Part shown: positions 2,358-58,577 of the stretch, one piece after another
How the letters are laid out: the number at the start of each line of letters is the position of its first letter
How positions within the stretch are numbered: position 1 is the stretch's first letter
DNA from: Ephemerocybe angulata
Taxonomy: Eukaryota > Basidiomycota > Agaricomycetes > Agaricales > Psathyrellaceae
Direction of reading: 5' to 3'
Length of the DNA: 64,000 nucleotides
Assembly (NCBI GenBank): GCA_013368325.1
Contig: JAACJK010000163.1
Span: 2,356,001 to 2,420,000, forward strand
Program-made: the position numbers and the translations under genes
Notes under the pieces: model-generated
The model's database searches: none
Seen by the model: only the letters and a program-made list of their open reading frames with translations
Told to the model about the DNA's origin: nothing

Positions 2358-3888
2358 ATGGCCACATCCTCTTCCACCAAGAAGTACACGTTCGAAACCC
2401 TTGACGAGGGTGAGGTCTATTGGAGAGACCATTACGATTGGTTGCTCGAATCCGGCTATCAGCTTCGGCCGCGGTACAAACCAGATTGGGTACCGACATG
2501 GAAGGCAAACCCTGCTCTCGATTTCTCGCAGTGCGAGGACTCGACAGTAAATATGGTTAGCACTTAGAGTCGCTGACTTTCTCCCACTTATATCCTAATA
2601 TTGTTGGTAGATTGGTGTGATCTGCGACGCGATACGGTTGAAGGATAACTCTCAAGTTATCTTGAAGAAGGTTGACAAGGAACGGCACAGGAATGAGCTT
2701 GAAGTCCATACCTTCCTATCGGAGACATCGGACCCCAATAACCACGCCATACCAATAATCGAGATCCTCAACCCGCCAGACAGTCCTTCCCACTGCCTTT
2801 TGGTGACGACTCAGAATCGTGATTGGGACGATCTCGACTTCGATACTGTTGGCGAAGTCGTCGACTTCATTGGCCAGATATTTGAGGCATGGCCCTTCCT
2901 TCTCAGCTCTTTATTCTCATTAATAATTTATCAACCATAACAGGGCTTCAAGTTCCTTCATGAAAACCTCATCGCGCACAGGTTGGTTTGCTGAAGCCAC
3001 GGGGAGTGTTAAAAGACTGACACGACCAACAGAGATATCAAAACTGACAACATTCTAATGGAAGCCACCGCCTTGTCCCAGGAGCATTTTCACCTCTTTC
3101 GAAGCGATACCAGCTTGGACATGAAGAAAAATGTTATGCCTAAAACAACACGGACAGAGGGCCACCCACGGTACTACATCATCGACTTCGGCCTGTCTCG
3201 TCGCTACGACGGGACCCAAAATCCTCCTTATGAGATTACCCCTGTATATGGGACAGATACCACCGTCCCTGAGTTCCGCAACCTTGACGAGCCCCACAAC
3301 CCATTCCCTATCGACGTTTACTGCTTAGGAAACATGGTGAAAATCAAAGTCCTCGGCGTAAGTCGTATCTATCTTCCAAGTGGCACAGAAACTCATCCTT
3401 CTATTTAGCGTACCGGGGAGAATCTAGGCTTCCAATGGCTCCTGCCGCTGCTTGATGACATGACGAAAGAGGATCCAGAGGATCGTCCGACTATGGAGGT
3501 GGTCATGACACGATTCTCCGATCTTACTCGTGGCCTCAAGGAATGGAAGCTGCGGTCAAAGTTCCGCCTCGACTGGGATGATCTGGCCTGGTACGAGCAG
3601 ACTACTACTATAGTTCCGCACTGGTGGAGGAAGCTACGGTTCACCGTCACCCGGACACCAGCGATTCCAACGTTCAAGCCCGTCTCCGACGCTAAGCCCC
3701 AAGAGGCGTCAAAGGGCAAGGACGCGTCGAAGGTTGAGGAGGTGTCGGGGCTTGCGAAGCCGTCGGAACCGGAGGATACGCCTAAGCCAGTGGAGGTGTC
3801 CAATGACGAGGAGTCAAACCTGACACAGGCGCCCAAACCTGCGGAGGCGGCTAAACCCATGGAAGTCTCCGAGCCTGTGGACGAGTAG
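2358..3888 (+). CDS. Protein kinase-like protein, copy 1
   Basis: Proposed CDS is 2358-2555, 2611-2886, 2944-2981, 3033-3357 and 3409-3888, giving 438 aa. The domain shows a candidate lysine strand VILKKV, catalytic loop AHRDIKTDN, metal-binding YIIDFGLS and a late PEDRPTM segment, so the main catalytic residues are present. The start was chosen because the first ATG begins the stretch conserved with the second copy at 12491-13871. That copy has the same five exons and the same phases. A C-terminal tail of about 70 aa carries loose repeats of the type P-x-E-x-V-S (KPVEVS, KPMEVS) that the second copy lacks. The second intron starts with GC instead of GT. This looks like a lineage-expanded Ser/Thr kinase family of basidiomycetes; its substrate cannot be told. 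Confidence 0.85.
2887..2943 (+). other. GC-AG intron
   Basis: The exon ends ATATTTGAG and the intron begins gcatgg and ends aacag. The paralog at 13286-13350 has a normal gtgcgg donor at exactly the same codon, so this is a donor base change within a conserved intron. Splicing restores the conserved text up to AHRDIK. Confidence 0.75.
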
Positions 3889-4120
3889 TTACTTTTCCCT
3901 CGACTAGTTCATTGCGCCATACTCACCATCCATTTACCACGTATATACTATACCCTGGAACTGATATCACTTCTTGTATGCATGGCCAACCTATCTCCAC
4001 CCCATACGCACAATTCATATATTCGCACATCTACATAAACCTATAACACAGCACATACAGCCAGAAGGACATCCACTAGGTAAACAACAACGACTAAGGC
4101 AAGCAAAGAGTGAGGTCACC

Positions 4121-53045: not shown

Positions 53046-53250
53046 TATTTATGGCAATAATACTGTTCGGAAAATCAAGAGACGTACATGTTGCAGAATC
53101 CTGTTCATGGGACAACATGTTGTTGAAATAGACCTCATGCACATGTTTCGCCGGGTACACGTTGTATTACTGACATGTTTGAGTTTGGGTATGTTACTAG
53201 CAGGATACAAGTTCATGTTGGACAAGCTGTGGATGGCCAGACATGTTTGC
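53046..53250 (+). repeat. Left inverted repeat with ACATGT sites
   Basis: Contains five ACATGT palindromes (near 53086, 53115, 53141, 53173 and 53241) plus ttcatgttgg variants. The outer 75 nt match the right arm best. Confidence 0.8.
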
Positions 53251-54619
53251 AACGGCCGCTATCACCGGAATGATGTGGCTGTGCAAGCGATCAGGCGCCT
53301 ATCTGAACTTTGGAGGGGCGTCTTTGACCGCCTCTAGCAGATTTGAGAGCCTCGGACTTAATTGTAAGAAACAGAAGGTTTAGCATAGTGTCGCTGTATA
53401 CATTCACTGTGAGGTAGGGCTTGAGGTTGGGAGACTTCAAGCACACAGAAGTCAAGCGCGAGGGCCATGAGGTCCGATGATGAAAAGTGCACCCGGACTG
53501 CCAGTCTGCTGAGCAGCGTCAGCGGAGTATGACCGCTCCACAAACATCTGGTATCTGTACCACTACGGAGAGGGTATGCAGTAGACAGACCTGAGATGAT
53601 GAAACACCGAATGGCGAGTGGGGAAATCCGGTGGAAATCAAGTGGAAATCTCAAATTATATTCCACTTTCAATTCCACTCTGACGCTCTAACGCTCCAAG
53701 AGACACTCCAGGAGTACACCAAGTTCGATGATACCTCAGAATGACGTCTACGCAACAGCCCAAGCCTCGATATCCTTCTAGTATAAATACAAAAAAGCGA
53801 ACGAGCATATTTCATTCACCAGTCGCATTCTCATCTCTCATACCAGCGATTACTTCTTATATCATCCCAACCTTTATCGCATCTCCTCCAATGGATAAAA
53901 TCAGAGGTATGTACATATGTCATGTGCATTTATATAGCACTTCTAAGTGTGCGTACGTGAAGAGCCCCGCCCCAACCCGAACTGCATCCCGGTTTCTTTG
54001 CCAAGTTCAACTGAGTCGCGAGTCGACTCGTGTACCAAGCACTGCAACCGTTACCTTACCTGTTATACACCGAGATATGGATTTTAGAGGGCTGTATTGC
54101 ACGAGGATAATGCTGATGAAAGTCATGAGAGAAATTTCGTCACAATCCGGCGTGAAGAAAACGCGATCCGCGATTTGGGCGCCCAAGATAAGATAAGTGC
54201 TCTCTCTCAAAATACGGATGAGCGGGCGAGCGCGCACACATATTACTCTGGGGAATCACTGGCCTAAGGACTGTAGCATAATATGTGATTGCATTGCCTG
54301 CCGCTTGTCGATACGTACACGGATGAAGGCGACAGTACACTTTTCTTGCAATAAAGGCAATGAAATTGTTTCTTGGGCGCATGCTGTAGGTACCTTATGT
54401 CCCAAGGTCACAAGGCCTATATATTCATAATCTAGTGCATCCTAGCTATCGAACAGTGTTATATTATATGCCTTACAATTAAACCCGAACGCGAGATCAA
54501 GAGGAAACAAAATCCCCAATCCCTCGATTCGACGCGTCCCGGTGCTCAGCCACCAACTGATCGCGCGCCCTGGGCCCAATCGGGCGGGCCATTAATCGTT
54601 ACACCTACTTGCCTCGGAT

Positions 54620-54856
54620 GCAGCATGTACGTCCCACCAGAACATGTCTACCCTCAGAACATGCTGATAGGAAACATGTATCCCCCAGCAACATGTCGTC
54701 CTCTTAATGATATTTCGCAACATGTAAGTCTACCCCAGACCCAAACATGTCAGTAGTACGAGATCCATTGCAAAACATGTTGTCCCATGAACAGAATTTT
54801 GCAACATGTAAGTCTCTCGATTTTTCGAACAGTATTATTGCCATACTTATTCACTC
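54620..54856 (-). repeat. Right inverted repeat with ACATGT sites
   Basis: Nine acatgt/acatgc-type sites between 54621 and 54810, spaced about 15-30 nt (near 54624, 54642, 54659, 54674, 54691, 54720, 54745, 54775 and 54804). The reverse complement aligns with 53046-53250. Confidence 0.8.
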
Positions 54857-54997
54857 GACGAAAGTGCAGTGGCAGCGCTAATATATGATGCAGGTTACTT
54901 AGACATCGAGGTCGATTGCTGACCGGGGGTAATAAACCATCATGATAGGTGGCGAGGTAAGCAAGCAGGGTACACTACCAACCAACTCAAGGACCAA

Positions 54998-57900
54998 CTA
55001 GAGACCAGTAAACATGCGCACAGCGAGCATCCTTGATGACTTCTTCTGGGTTCTGCCTCGTTTCGACGTCGCCTCTTCAGCTAAACTCCCTGGCTCGACC
55101 TGAAGTACCTTTCTGCGGGTTGCTATCGCCTCGTGAAGTTGTTGATGCATAGCCTTCCCAGCATCTGTCTCCGCCAAGGAGACTCGTTTGGGGCCGATTA
55201 ACTCGTCCTGAATCTGCAGCAACTCGTACAAGAGAGCCCCACTATCCGGACTGGCCGCAAGTCCCAGCAGGTTATCCACAATGCGTAGTGCACTGCCGCC
55301 CTCGTCTTCGTCACTGAGCCGCATGGTTTGCGCCCCCCGTTCGATCATACTCCGCCAAAACTTTACCAACAGCCTGTTCTCCGTCGCCTCAAAATCCCTG
55401 CCCTCACCCCTGCACCACTTAGTTGTGACAAACACAACCTTTTTCGAGAAAGCTTCCCCACACATGCGGCTGAATAGGTCCAGATTCGCTCGAGCGGCCC
55501 TTGAAAAATCGTCTTGGGAAATGTCATGGACATAGATGACCCCTCCGAGAGCATCTCCTTTTTGGCGGCTTTGGCGACACTCCAGTTAGTTTATTGGCGT
55601 TTTCTCTTCCAAAAACTCGACGTACGAGTGATCCAGCCAGTTTACAATTCCTGAGAAGATGCTATAATCTCTCGCAAACTCTTCGCCGCAAAACCCGGGG
55701 GTGTCGACGATGAGAACTCGGCGCCCTTTCAAAGCTGGATACTTCGAGGACAGGTCGTTGACTGCAACAGCCTGTAATTCTCTCGTACAAGGGGACAGAC
55801 CATAGCCAATTTGAACCTTCTCATCGCTCCCCACTTCCTTTAAGAGCTTGCTGATAAACTGAATCCCCTTGTGAGCGAGTCCCCTGAGATGCTGAGGTGG
55901 AACTCACATAACTCTTTCCAGCCTTCGCCATACCCATGACGCTGCAGAATAATGCAATCTCAGCGATTAAATAGGTGAATCATTGGAAAGAAAGAGGGCG
56001 TTCAAAGGATTCAAAGTGCATTCGACTTACAGGATTACGATATCTGATAGACGATCGGTTGGTTGGTTCTTGGATGTTTGTTCGGCCACAGTCTCCAAAT
56101 CGTTACTAGAAATAAACCTAGATCATCACAATGCGCAACAAATTGGGTGCCGCATTACTCACAAAGTCGAGGGCCTATCGACCGGTGAGCTCAAGACGCT
56201 CTCGTTTCTAGCTTGGGGTCCCTATTGCACACTTAGTCTGCGAGCATTCTTTAACGCATCAAGCGGGCTGCTTACAACTCCGAGTGTACTAACTGGTCAA
56301 TCGACACAGTTTTTGCAATGCGCCTCTGATCGTCCAACGAGTTTTCCATGACGGCGAGCATGGCATCCTCATTGCTGGCCGTCTCGATTTTAGCTTGAAG
56401 CCCCCTGGCGCACAATTAATCAACATACGGGCTCCAATGCATCGTGTCCCACTCACGCGGTCCGTGATTGGTCCATCGCTGGGGTCTTCGCAGTGAAATA
56501 CTGGTGGTCCGATGACTCTTCCACCACAGCAACTACAGCAGCCTCGTTGCTGACAGCCTTGTCTTTAGCCTGGATCTCCCTTAAGCACGGGTTTTAGTAC
56601 ACAGGCTTAAACGTGTCAGGTGCGTTGCTCACGAGTGTACTAGTAACTTATCCATCGACAGGGTCTCCGCAGGACATTCATGGTCATCCATTAGGCCATC
56701 TACAACGACCTCGTCCTTGTATTGGAGCTCCCTGTTATATGATCCGTCAGTATATAGGCCTAAACAAGGCATCAGCGAAGTAATTCACGAGATTGGCAAC
56801 TGGTCCATAGGCGATGTTTTCACAAGAAATTTCTGGTCATCGGATGCCTCTTCCACGATGGCGATCCCGACGGTCTCGTTGCCGGCGACCTCGTCCCTAG
56901 CGTGAAGATCCCTGGGTCACATCTATCAGAACAAGGGCTGCAACGCACCACGGAGGCTCACTCACTTTAGTAACGCAATCGGCGAGTGACCCCTCGATGA
57001 GGGTTTCGCTTCCCGGTCATCCGAAGACTTTTCCATACTAACAGCGAACCCAATGGAATCGTTGCCGGTGGCCTCGTCTTCGGCTGGGAGCTCTCTGGCG
57101 CACCGTTCGTCAGTGTACGGGATTTGAAGCGTCGCGCGTCACTCACCCCTCTGGTACCAGGTCCCTTGGCGGCACTGTTGTCGTCGTTTCTGCGGCAACA
57201 GGCGGCGCCAGTGCGTGTTCAACGGCTTCTGCAATGCTCCTGGGTCTAGATGCAAAACATCTAGTTTCCGACACACTGGTACGTCGGTTATAAGTATATA
57301 GCTCTTCAACATGCGCTAATTGGGCAGCGGAGATTTACTTACGGAGTCAACGGCCGGTCATTCAACATCGTAACCAAGCGGCCTAGAATGCCATCCACGA
57401 TGTCTTTGGCGGAAGCGGCTTCGGCGGCAGCGGCTTCGTCTTCAGCTAAGATTTCCCTGAACAAAATATATTAGTATGCTCTTATCGAATGAACGGGAAC
57501 CTTGGAGGCATGCCTGCTTATCTCTGCTGAGGGTTTCTTAGTGTTTGGCGGAGGCACCTTCCATAGGTTGCCCACGAATCGCCGGGGGCCGGCTCCTTCT
57601 GCCTTGAACCTCTTGACGTGAGCTCCTTCGCTTACCATGGGGGCCCACTCCGCAAGTAAGAGCTGTTTCTCCCTTGTATCGAATGTTCTGTTATGCGTTC
57701 TGCCCCACTTCGACGTCACAAGCACCACCTTATCCATTGAACCTTCCTTGAGAAATCGTTGCAGCGTTGCAAGGTTCTTTTGAGATTGACCTGGATGCCG
57801 ATCCTTGGAAATATCGTGAAGGTATATGATCCCCCCAAGTACAGCGCCGTCTCGACAACTTCGGGCCATCATAGTCAGAGGTATAATCATGGTAATTTAG

Positions 57901-58577
57901 AACAGTAACAGACGTACTTTTCTTTCAGCCATGTCTCGATTCGCTTGAGGAGGTGTTGATCTGAGGCTGGATCAACGTCGCTATTGAACCCCGGAGTGTC
58001 GATAACGTCGACCTGGAAGCCGCTCAACACGGGGTACGCGGAGGTTAAGCCTGGAATGAAGACGTGTGTTATGTCCACAGTGCAAGGGCGTATTTGTTGG
58101 CCGATCGTGACCCGGTGTTGGATTCCTGCAGCCTCCAGTAGCTTGTTTATGAACTGACTCCCAACAGTCATGAGTCTCCCCCAAGTGCAAGTTGTCTCCT
58201 TCTACTCACATAACTTTTTCCAGCTCCCGTCTCCCCAACGACACTGGTAATATGCATAAGCAAGCTAAATTTAACAGTACAACGACTTGCGAAGGATCCA
58301 CTCACAGGATCACAATATTGGATAACACATTGGTGGCCTGAGTGCAAGGAATCAACATCCTTGGTATCAACGGCGTGAGCGTCAATACAGATACGAAGAG
58401 CAGGAGGTACAGACAAGTACCAAAGTAACGCTTTCTAAAGATTGCCACGAGGCGGAGGGCAAATTGAAGCCAACAAGATACCAGAACAAACATGGCGAAC
58501 AAACATTTCGTTTCAGCGGTGGCCACGCCAGGAGACCTGCTCGTTTCAGGGCTGATGCCTGATACATTAGATTCCAT
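54998..58577 (-). CDS. Candidate double G-domain protein with exon-repeat linker
   Basis: Sixteen exons stay in one frame (about 884 aa): 58577-58306, 58243-58210, 58153-57918, 57858-57514, 57456-57343, 57239-57147, 57094-56966, 56911-56789, 56731-56633, 56579-56457, 56404-56276, 56207-56163, 56105-56031, 55941-55908, 55858-55626 and 55568-54998. Order: two hydrophobic, possibly membrane-spanning stretches (FAMFVLVSCWLQFALRLVAI, TCLYLLLFVSVLTLTPLI), G domain 1 (VVGETGAGKSY, VDVIDTPGFNSD, VVLVTSKWGR), a linker of repeated exons, then G domain 2 (VMGMAKAGKSY, VLIVDTPGFCGEE, VVFVTTKWCRG) with C-terminal helices. The junction between G domain 1 and the linker needs a GC-AG intron (57513-57457). 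Without it, domain 1 ends at a stop at 57471 and two genes must be assumed. Both P-loops sit on 34-nt exons as in the neighbours. Confidence 0.6.
56163..57456 (-). repeat. Tandem exon repeats in the G-domain linker
   Basis: Seven exons of 93-129 nt plus a short 45-nt one, each separated by about 50-70 nt introns. All have length divisible by three and phase 2 on both sides. Typical starts are EILAEDEAA, ELPAEDEATGND, DLHARDEVAGNE, ELQYKDEVVVD, EIQAKDKAVSNE and GLQAKIETASNE. Typical ends are PMDQLP, MDKLLVHS, MDQSRT and IDQLVHS. They clearly come from repeated duplication of one exon. One member of about 31 codons (SIAEAVEHALAPP) is more diverged. Confidence 0.85.

Follow-up and report, generated by a model that had tools for sequence, protein, structure and literature searches.

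Proteins that carry several G domains in one chain are already known. In the mollusc Biomphalaria glabrata, 8 of 91 AIG genes are dual-AIG1 genes (PMC7053062), which, like the fungal genes described here, specify two G domains per protein and lie in tandem arrays; some of their products have transmembrane segments and coiled coils, and the same article names an IAN motif and a conserved box in the AIG1 domain (PMC7053062). The fungal genes differ in that the Biomphalaria AIG1 domain is mostly contained in one exon, in that a spacer of duplicated small exons goes unmentioned in the available part of that article (PMC7053062), and in that the two fungal domains score below the Pfam AIG1 cut-off. 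Vertebrate GIMAP8 likewise combines several G domains of the GIMAP type in a single chain, but it has three of them, it belongs to lymphocytes, and no such linker is named in the available part of its source (PMC4201521). Pairing of G domains is believed to switch GTPases of the GIMAP/septin type, and GIMAP domains are believed to be regulated through homo- or heterodimerisation and to assemble scaffolds on membranes (PMC8201404). EngA/Der also has two G domains in tandem (PMC3466195); unlike the fungal protein it is a bacterial ribosome-assembly factor with a KH domain, and the similarity is only distant. The nearest solved structures by profile comparison are septins and GIMAP7, to which the similarity is weak and partial. 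Septins and GIMAP7 have a single G domain per chain.

Here we analyse a locus of the basidiomycete Ephemerocybe angulata in which two G domains, G1 and G2, are separated by a run of small exons. Based on predicted gene models, we favour the reading that both domains belong to one polypeptide, with a probability of roughly 0.55. Fungal double-G proteins of this family occur in no title or abstract opening among the literature matches listed, and as far as these matches show, fungal double-G genes and a spacer of repeated exons are new. An earlier, sequence-only reading of this DNA had proposed the tandem double GTPase as a new architecture. This holds at most within the fungal family, since dual-AIG1 genes are known in molluscs, GIMAP8 has three G domains and the locus is not unique even in its own genome, which contains two further complete models (D1 and D2, see below).

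Two G domains of one family in a tandem array

The window, by which we mean the whole 64,000-nt stretch of DNA analysed, is part of contig C117 of the genome that was searched (58.7 Mb in 232 contigs). Its minus strand carries an array of related genes, X (~60.5-59.6 kb), G1, G2 and Y (~52.5-51.5 kb), all on that one strand, and when the last exon of G2 was used as query, 26 genome matches reached E 0.001 or better among 35 candidates scored, including itself, G1, X and Y. The minus-strand exons proposed earlier were found at their positions (Table 1). Introns at the locus measure 49-89 nt and have GT-AG ends, with the GC donor of intron 4, at 57513, as the sole exception at the ends. Both of the P-loops that had been read from the sequence, GETGAGKSY and GMAKAGKSY, are present, each within a micro-exon; 34-nt P-loop exons with identical borders and fixed phases recur in 21 hand-picked paralogous P-loop exons.

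Table 1. Exons of the G1-G2 locus (positions in the window) and double-G gene models found elsewhere in the genome
Feature	Position	Strand	Content
Exon 1	58306..58577	-	Start (ATG at 58577), two hydrophobic segments, beta-1 strand (NIVIL) of G1
Exon 2	58210..58243	-	G1 P-loop micro-exon (VVGETGAGKSY), 34 nt
Exon 3	57918..58153	-	G1 switch regions, DTPG
Exon 4	57514..57858	-	G1 TSKW and own tail; GC donor CAG/GCATGC (slash marks the junction)
TAA "stop"	57471..57473	-	Part of a branch-point-like motif (TACTAAT); intron 4 ends 14 nt further on
Exon 5 (e5)	57343..57456	-	G-domain-tail-like helix (EAASAKDIVDGIL)
Exon 6 (e6)	57147..57275	-	Open, in phase; not a clear repeat copy
Exon 7 (e7)	56966..57094	-	Repeat unit
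Exon 8 (e8)	56789..56911	-	Repeat unit
Exon 9 (e9)	56633..56731	-	Repeat unit, shortened
Exon 10 (e10)	56457..56579	-	Repeat unit
Exon 11 (e11)	56276..56404	-	Repeat unit
Exon 12 (e12)	56163..56221	-	Decayed unit; acceptor 56221 gives TGA in linker frame; acceptor 56207 gives open 45 nt
Exon 13	56031..56105	-	G2 lead-in and beta-1 strand (DIVIL); lacks an ATG; preceded by an in-frame stop a few codons away
Exon 14	55908..55941	-	G2 P-loop micro-exon (VMGMAKAGKSY), 34 nt
Exon 15	55626..55858	-	G2, DTPG
Exon 16	54998..55568	-	G2 TTKW, tail, basic C-terminus; stop TAG
D1	L038:3467-5271 (C117 near 2.584 Mb)		Complete model: seven exons, all GT-AG, 1479 nt, 492 aa
D2	L040:5624-7443 (C117 near 3.564 Mb)		Complete model: seven exons, all GT-AG, 1440 nt, 479 aa
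D3	L039 ~2459-4100		Fused pair; apparent frame breaks in both domains

The claim of two G domains is borne out by Pfam MMR_HSR1 (PF01926), where G1 scores 28.8 and G2 23.4 bits, both above the curated cut-off of 21.9. For Pfam AIG1 (PF04548, cut-off 27 bits) both remain below, G1 at 25.0 bits (26.9 when trimmed) and G2 at 18.0; the AIG1 profile matches 12/12 members of our family alignment at E 0.01 or better. Against Pfam Septin (PF00735, cut-off 26.2 bits), G1 scores 25.2 bits whole and 26.5 trimmed, and the 303-aa piece of G2 gave no match at E 1. When a profile of the 12 family members was compared with solved structures, septin-9 (E 1.1e-8, profile positions 5-97) and GIMAP7 (E 6.4e-8, positions 4-155) came out at the top. 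The P-loop residues G9, G14, K15 and S16 (GxxxxGK[ST]) and the DTPG motif (DxxG) are invariant in the 12-sequence alignment. On sequence grounds, we regard G1 and G2 as true members of one family of predicted septin/AIG1-like GTPases.

The guanine-specificity motif, [NT]KxD, is absent from both domains, which read TSKWGR (G1) and TTKWCR (G2) in its place. In every one of the 12 rows of the family alignment this position reads T-[STN]-[KHM]-W with no following Asp. Given the missing Asp, nucleotide specificity in the family may be unusual.

A probable spacer of copied exons

Between the domains lie exons e5-e12, of which e5-e11 measure 114, 129, 129, 123, 99, 123 and 129 nt; all seven lengths are divisible by three and all open in phase 2. 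When the DNA of e7-e11 was compared, 9/10 pairs exceeded all 300 shuffles, and the tenth, e7 with e9, exceeded 294/300. Comparison with the other linker exons gave a best z of 3.6 for e5 and 3.9 for e12, and for e6 one pair at z 3.1. The proposal that about eight small exons descend from one ancestor is therefore retained for five clear copies (e7-e11); e5 and e12 are weak and e6 is nearly unrelated. Among the introns between the repeats, 0/15 pairs were clearly above shuffles in global identity, and z exceeded 3 in 5/28 pairs in a local comparison. At the thresholds used, neither the linker DNA nor the linker protein had a match at any other place in the genome.

The pattern of differences among the copies suggests that they have evolved as coding sequence. 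Over 360 codon pairs of e7-e11, differences at codon positions 1, 2 and 3 number 136, 112 and 184 (permutation P = 0.00035), and dN is below dS in all nine of the ten pairs for which it could be computed; it should be noted that gaps in this codon alignment are whole codons by construction and that the ten pairs are mutually dependent. The codon score of the joined linker was matched or exceeded by 19/2000 random windows. From the excess at third positions, the low dN and the linker coding score, we conclude that the sequence of e7-e11 points to repeats that are translated now or were until recently. In e6 the codon score does not prefer the joined frame. Synonymous codon bias was discarded as a coding test, as it is near zero even in the sure exon 16. 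The spacer is rich in acidic residues, with 58 Asp+Glu vs 27 Lys+Arg in its 298-aa version.

The first exon of the spacer has a different likeness. The e5 helix in Table 1 resembles the last G-domain helix of gene X (EKASARSIVDGLL), with 0/2000 shuffles scoring as high, and in comparisons with seven segments it reached P 0.012 or less in five, the two misses being the own tails of G1 and of the first domain of D2 (D2a). Joined to G1, e5 fits the family profile as well as the tail that G1 already has. Possible origins are the tail of a third G gene, since lost, and the duplication of a G-domain tail.

Possible joining of G1, the spacer and G2

The sequence-only reading had given an open frame of 2655 nt without a stop. 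This is one among many: in the region of exons 11-13 we counted 119 splice combinations with an open frame and many different totals, so that the divisibility by three of the exact 2655-nt model carries little weight, and we did not retain it. The plainest models are 2646 nt/881 aa, in which exon 12 is skipped, and 2691 nt/896 aa, in which exon 12 begins from 56207.

The GC donor at 57513 had been flagged as the weak point, and it is weak, as 21% of the GC sites on the plus strand of the window score as well. No GT donor giving a short in-frame intron 4 was found: the in-frame GT donors between 57720 and 57471 were rejected because they require introns of 153-258 nt. One of them, the GT donor at 57609, provides a good G1 tail from e5 (218.0 vs 214.5 bits with the exon 4 tail) but has a donor score of -7.0. 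GC donors are not mentioned in the available part of PMC2397502. The acceptor at 57456 is among the top 1% of AG sites and is preceded by TACTAAT, which contains the TAA at 57471.

This junction is also where the locus would divide into two genes, with G1 alone running to 57471 (309 aa) and a second gene, made of the linker and G2, starting from an in-frame ATG in exon 5 (~57368). The G1-only frame is indeed open to 57471, its product fits the family profile nearly as well as the GC-joined form (214.2 vs 216.6 bits), and the GC donor is weak. However, the supposed stop lies inside the branch-point-like motif that precedes a top-1% acceptor, the part of e5 in front of the ATG is itself G-domain-like, only ~100 nt would separate the two genes, and the problem of exon 12 would remain for the second. 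We consider such a division unlikely.

Exon 12 is a second weak junction, overlooked when the GC donor was named as the weak one. From the acceptor at 56221 (score 0.1) a TGA follows after nine codons, and the in-frame acceptor at 56207 scores -6.9. Skipping the exon leaves an intron of 170 nt, vs 49-89 nt for the others at the locus, and fungi seldom have cassette exons (PMC2397502). G1 and the linker could form a gene that ends at the exon 12 TGA, leaving G2 as a neighbour that lost its start or as an unproductive remnant; it is the better-scoring acceptor that gives this TGA, and the rarity of exon skipping in fungi speaks for the same outcome. Yet G2 is clean across ~300 aa, with P-loop and DTPG, which would be unexpected in a dead remnant, and exon 13 retains a strong donor (9.3). 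We therefore regard a gene ending in exon 12 as quite improbable.

The start codon of G2 bears on the same question. The first strand of G2 is encoded by exon 13, which contains no ATG and has an in-frame stop a few codons upstream, and ATGs inside the G2 P-loop exon would omit that strand. By comparison, the exon upstream of the P-loop exon contains an ATG for 16/19 other P-loop exons in automatic models, one of the three misses lying at a locus edge (G1, G2 and the second domains of D1-D3 were set aside in this count), and in 4/4 paralogous genes inspected individually. Without a start codon of its own, G2 needs the exons upstream. We favour the fusion of G1 and G2 because of this missing start, the tail-like helix of e5 and the repeats that evolve as coding sequence; it is favoured rather than shown, since it requires both the weak GC donor and the awkward exon 12.

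Double-G gene models elsewhere in the genome

In three further places of the fetched loci, D1, D2 and D3, two G-domain matches share a strand and are separated by less than 200 nt. The exon closing the first domain carries, in all three, the first strand of the second domain at its end (TDIVIL, RDIAVL, TDIVIL). In D1 and D2 this beta-1 strand has no start of its own and is in frame with the first domain through GT-AG introns only; at the G1-G2 locus G2 has no start, but the connection would include two weak junctions. As predicted gene models, D1 and D2 show the double architecture more cleanly than the G1-G2 locus does. Together with the fused pair in D3, these two complete models make a recurrent double-G architecture in this genome well supported at the level of gene prediction.

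D3 appears from its frame breaks to be a decaying double-G gene, and the G1-G2 locus as a whole might similarly be a recently decaying copy, one in which the weak GC donor, the TGA of exon 12 and an exon 6 unrelated to the repeats would be the first lesions. Two weak junctions within one gene would fit this explanation as well. Decay is difficult to reconcile with a joined frame that is open in 15/16 exons and with the third-position excess among the repeats, and we judge it the least likely of the alternatives to fusion.

A tree of 20 rows places G2 with Y (84/84) and joins G1 to the first domain of D2 (87/88); two rows with long branches, one of them the second domain of D1, had been left out of the 22 that made up the first tree, where G2 is again found with Y (84/81) and G1 belongs to a loose group that also includes X, D2a and two genes of locus L037. 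A single ancestral double-G gene was tried as an explanation, and a clade uniting G2 and the D2 and D3 second domains was rejected (p-AU 0.005). Groupings that were not rejected are G1 and G2 as sisters (0.109), a clade of G1 with the first domains of D1, D2 and D3 (0.171) and D2b with D3b, their second domains in D2 and D3 (0.519), the tested groupings having been partly chosen after the first tree. Based on the tree groupings and the p-AU of 0.005, the fusion of G1 and G2 appears to be separate from D2 and D3. Repeated fusion of pairs in one fungus, if true, would amount to natural covalent G-domain dimers, and the locus offers a view of tandem arrays making new protein architectures, including a spacer made by exon duplication.

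The N-terminus and a possible membrane anchor

The two hydrophobic segments noted in exon 1 exist (peak mean hydropathy 2.05 and 2.04); they suggest, rather than establish, the membrane anchor that had been proposed from them, as two such segments are found in 7/514 pieces (up to 91 aa) of the long open frames of the window, exon 1 pieces included. T is enriched at codon position 2 of exon 1 (0.42 vs 0.28 at positions 1 and 3), as in membrane segments, and the general coding score of the exon is like that of random windows (480/2000 as high). Relatives of exon 1 were searched for in the genome and none was found at E 10. A later in-frame ATG (residue 74) would shorten the N-terminus to about the length seen in the single-G paralogues. 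A membrane anchor of the fused protein is possible.

The automatic model of a single-G paralogue at locus L050 (near C117 3.165 Mb, minus strand) ends with an extended low-complexity tail and, at the C-terminus, the hydrophobic segment FFLFVGLLLLIIVPIV. Because of this segment, membrane attachment may recur in the G-domain family.

Proposed origin and mode of action

What the computations support are the two G domains, the coding character of the repeats, the missing start of G2 and the complete double-G models at other loci; we infer dimerisation, the membrane site, and the splicing at 57513 and near exon 12. In the proposed course of events, a tandem array of single-G genes (X, G1, G2, Y) would have undergone fusion of the neighbours G1 and G2. 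The product, ~880-900 aa long, would consist of a possible N-terminal hydrophobic hairpin, G1, an acidic spacer and G2 with its basic tail, the spacer of ~280-300 aa being composed of e5, as a G-domain tail, and tandem copies of a small exon of symmetric phase. By analogy with septin, GIMAP and Toc relatives, the most likely mode of action is that both domains would bind nucleotide and pair mutually or with single-G paralogues, and that pairing would set hydrolysis, while the spacer would let the two domains meet and the ends of the protein would hold it at a membrane. With two domains per chain, pairing would become more likely locally, and such a chain could bridge a pair of membranes or of assemblies.

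More tentatively, and as a possibility that we hold with clearly less confidence than the fusion, this lineage might repeatedly fuse neighbouring septin/AIG1-like GTPase genes. Here the exon-repeat spacer would also have grown, through tandem copying of an exon of symmetric phase, perhaps derived from a G-domain tail, into part of a membrane-anchored double GTPase of adjustable reach, and the product could switch between G1-linker and full double-G forms, depending on whether exon 12 is included.

Just 3' of G2 lies a transposon-like element (window 53050-54880), whose arms are 72-nt inverted repeats (53050-53121 and 54774-54845) that are 93% complementary. Its right end recurs at C202 (98%) and C47 (89%), and each of these copies has a second piece in the opposite orientation, ~2 and 7.5 kb away, respectively.
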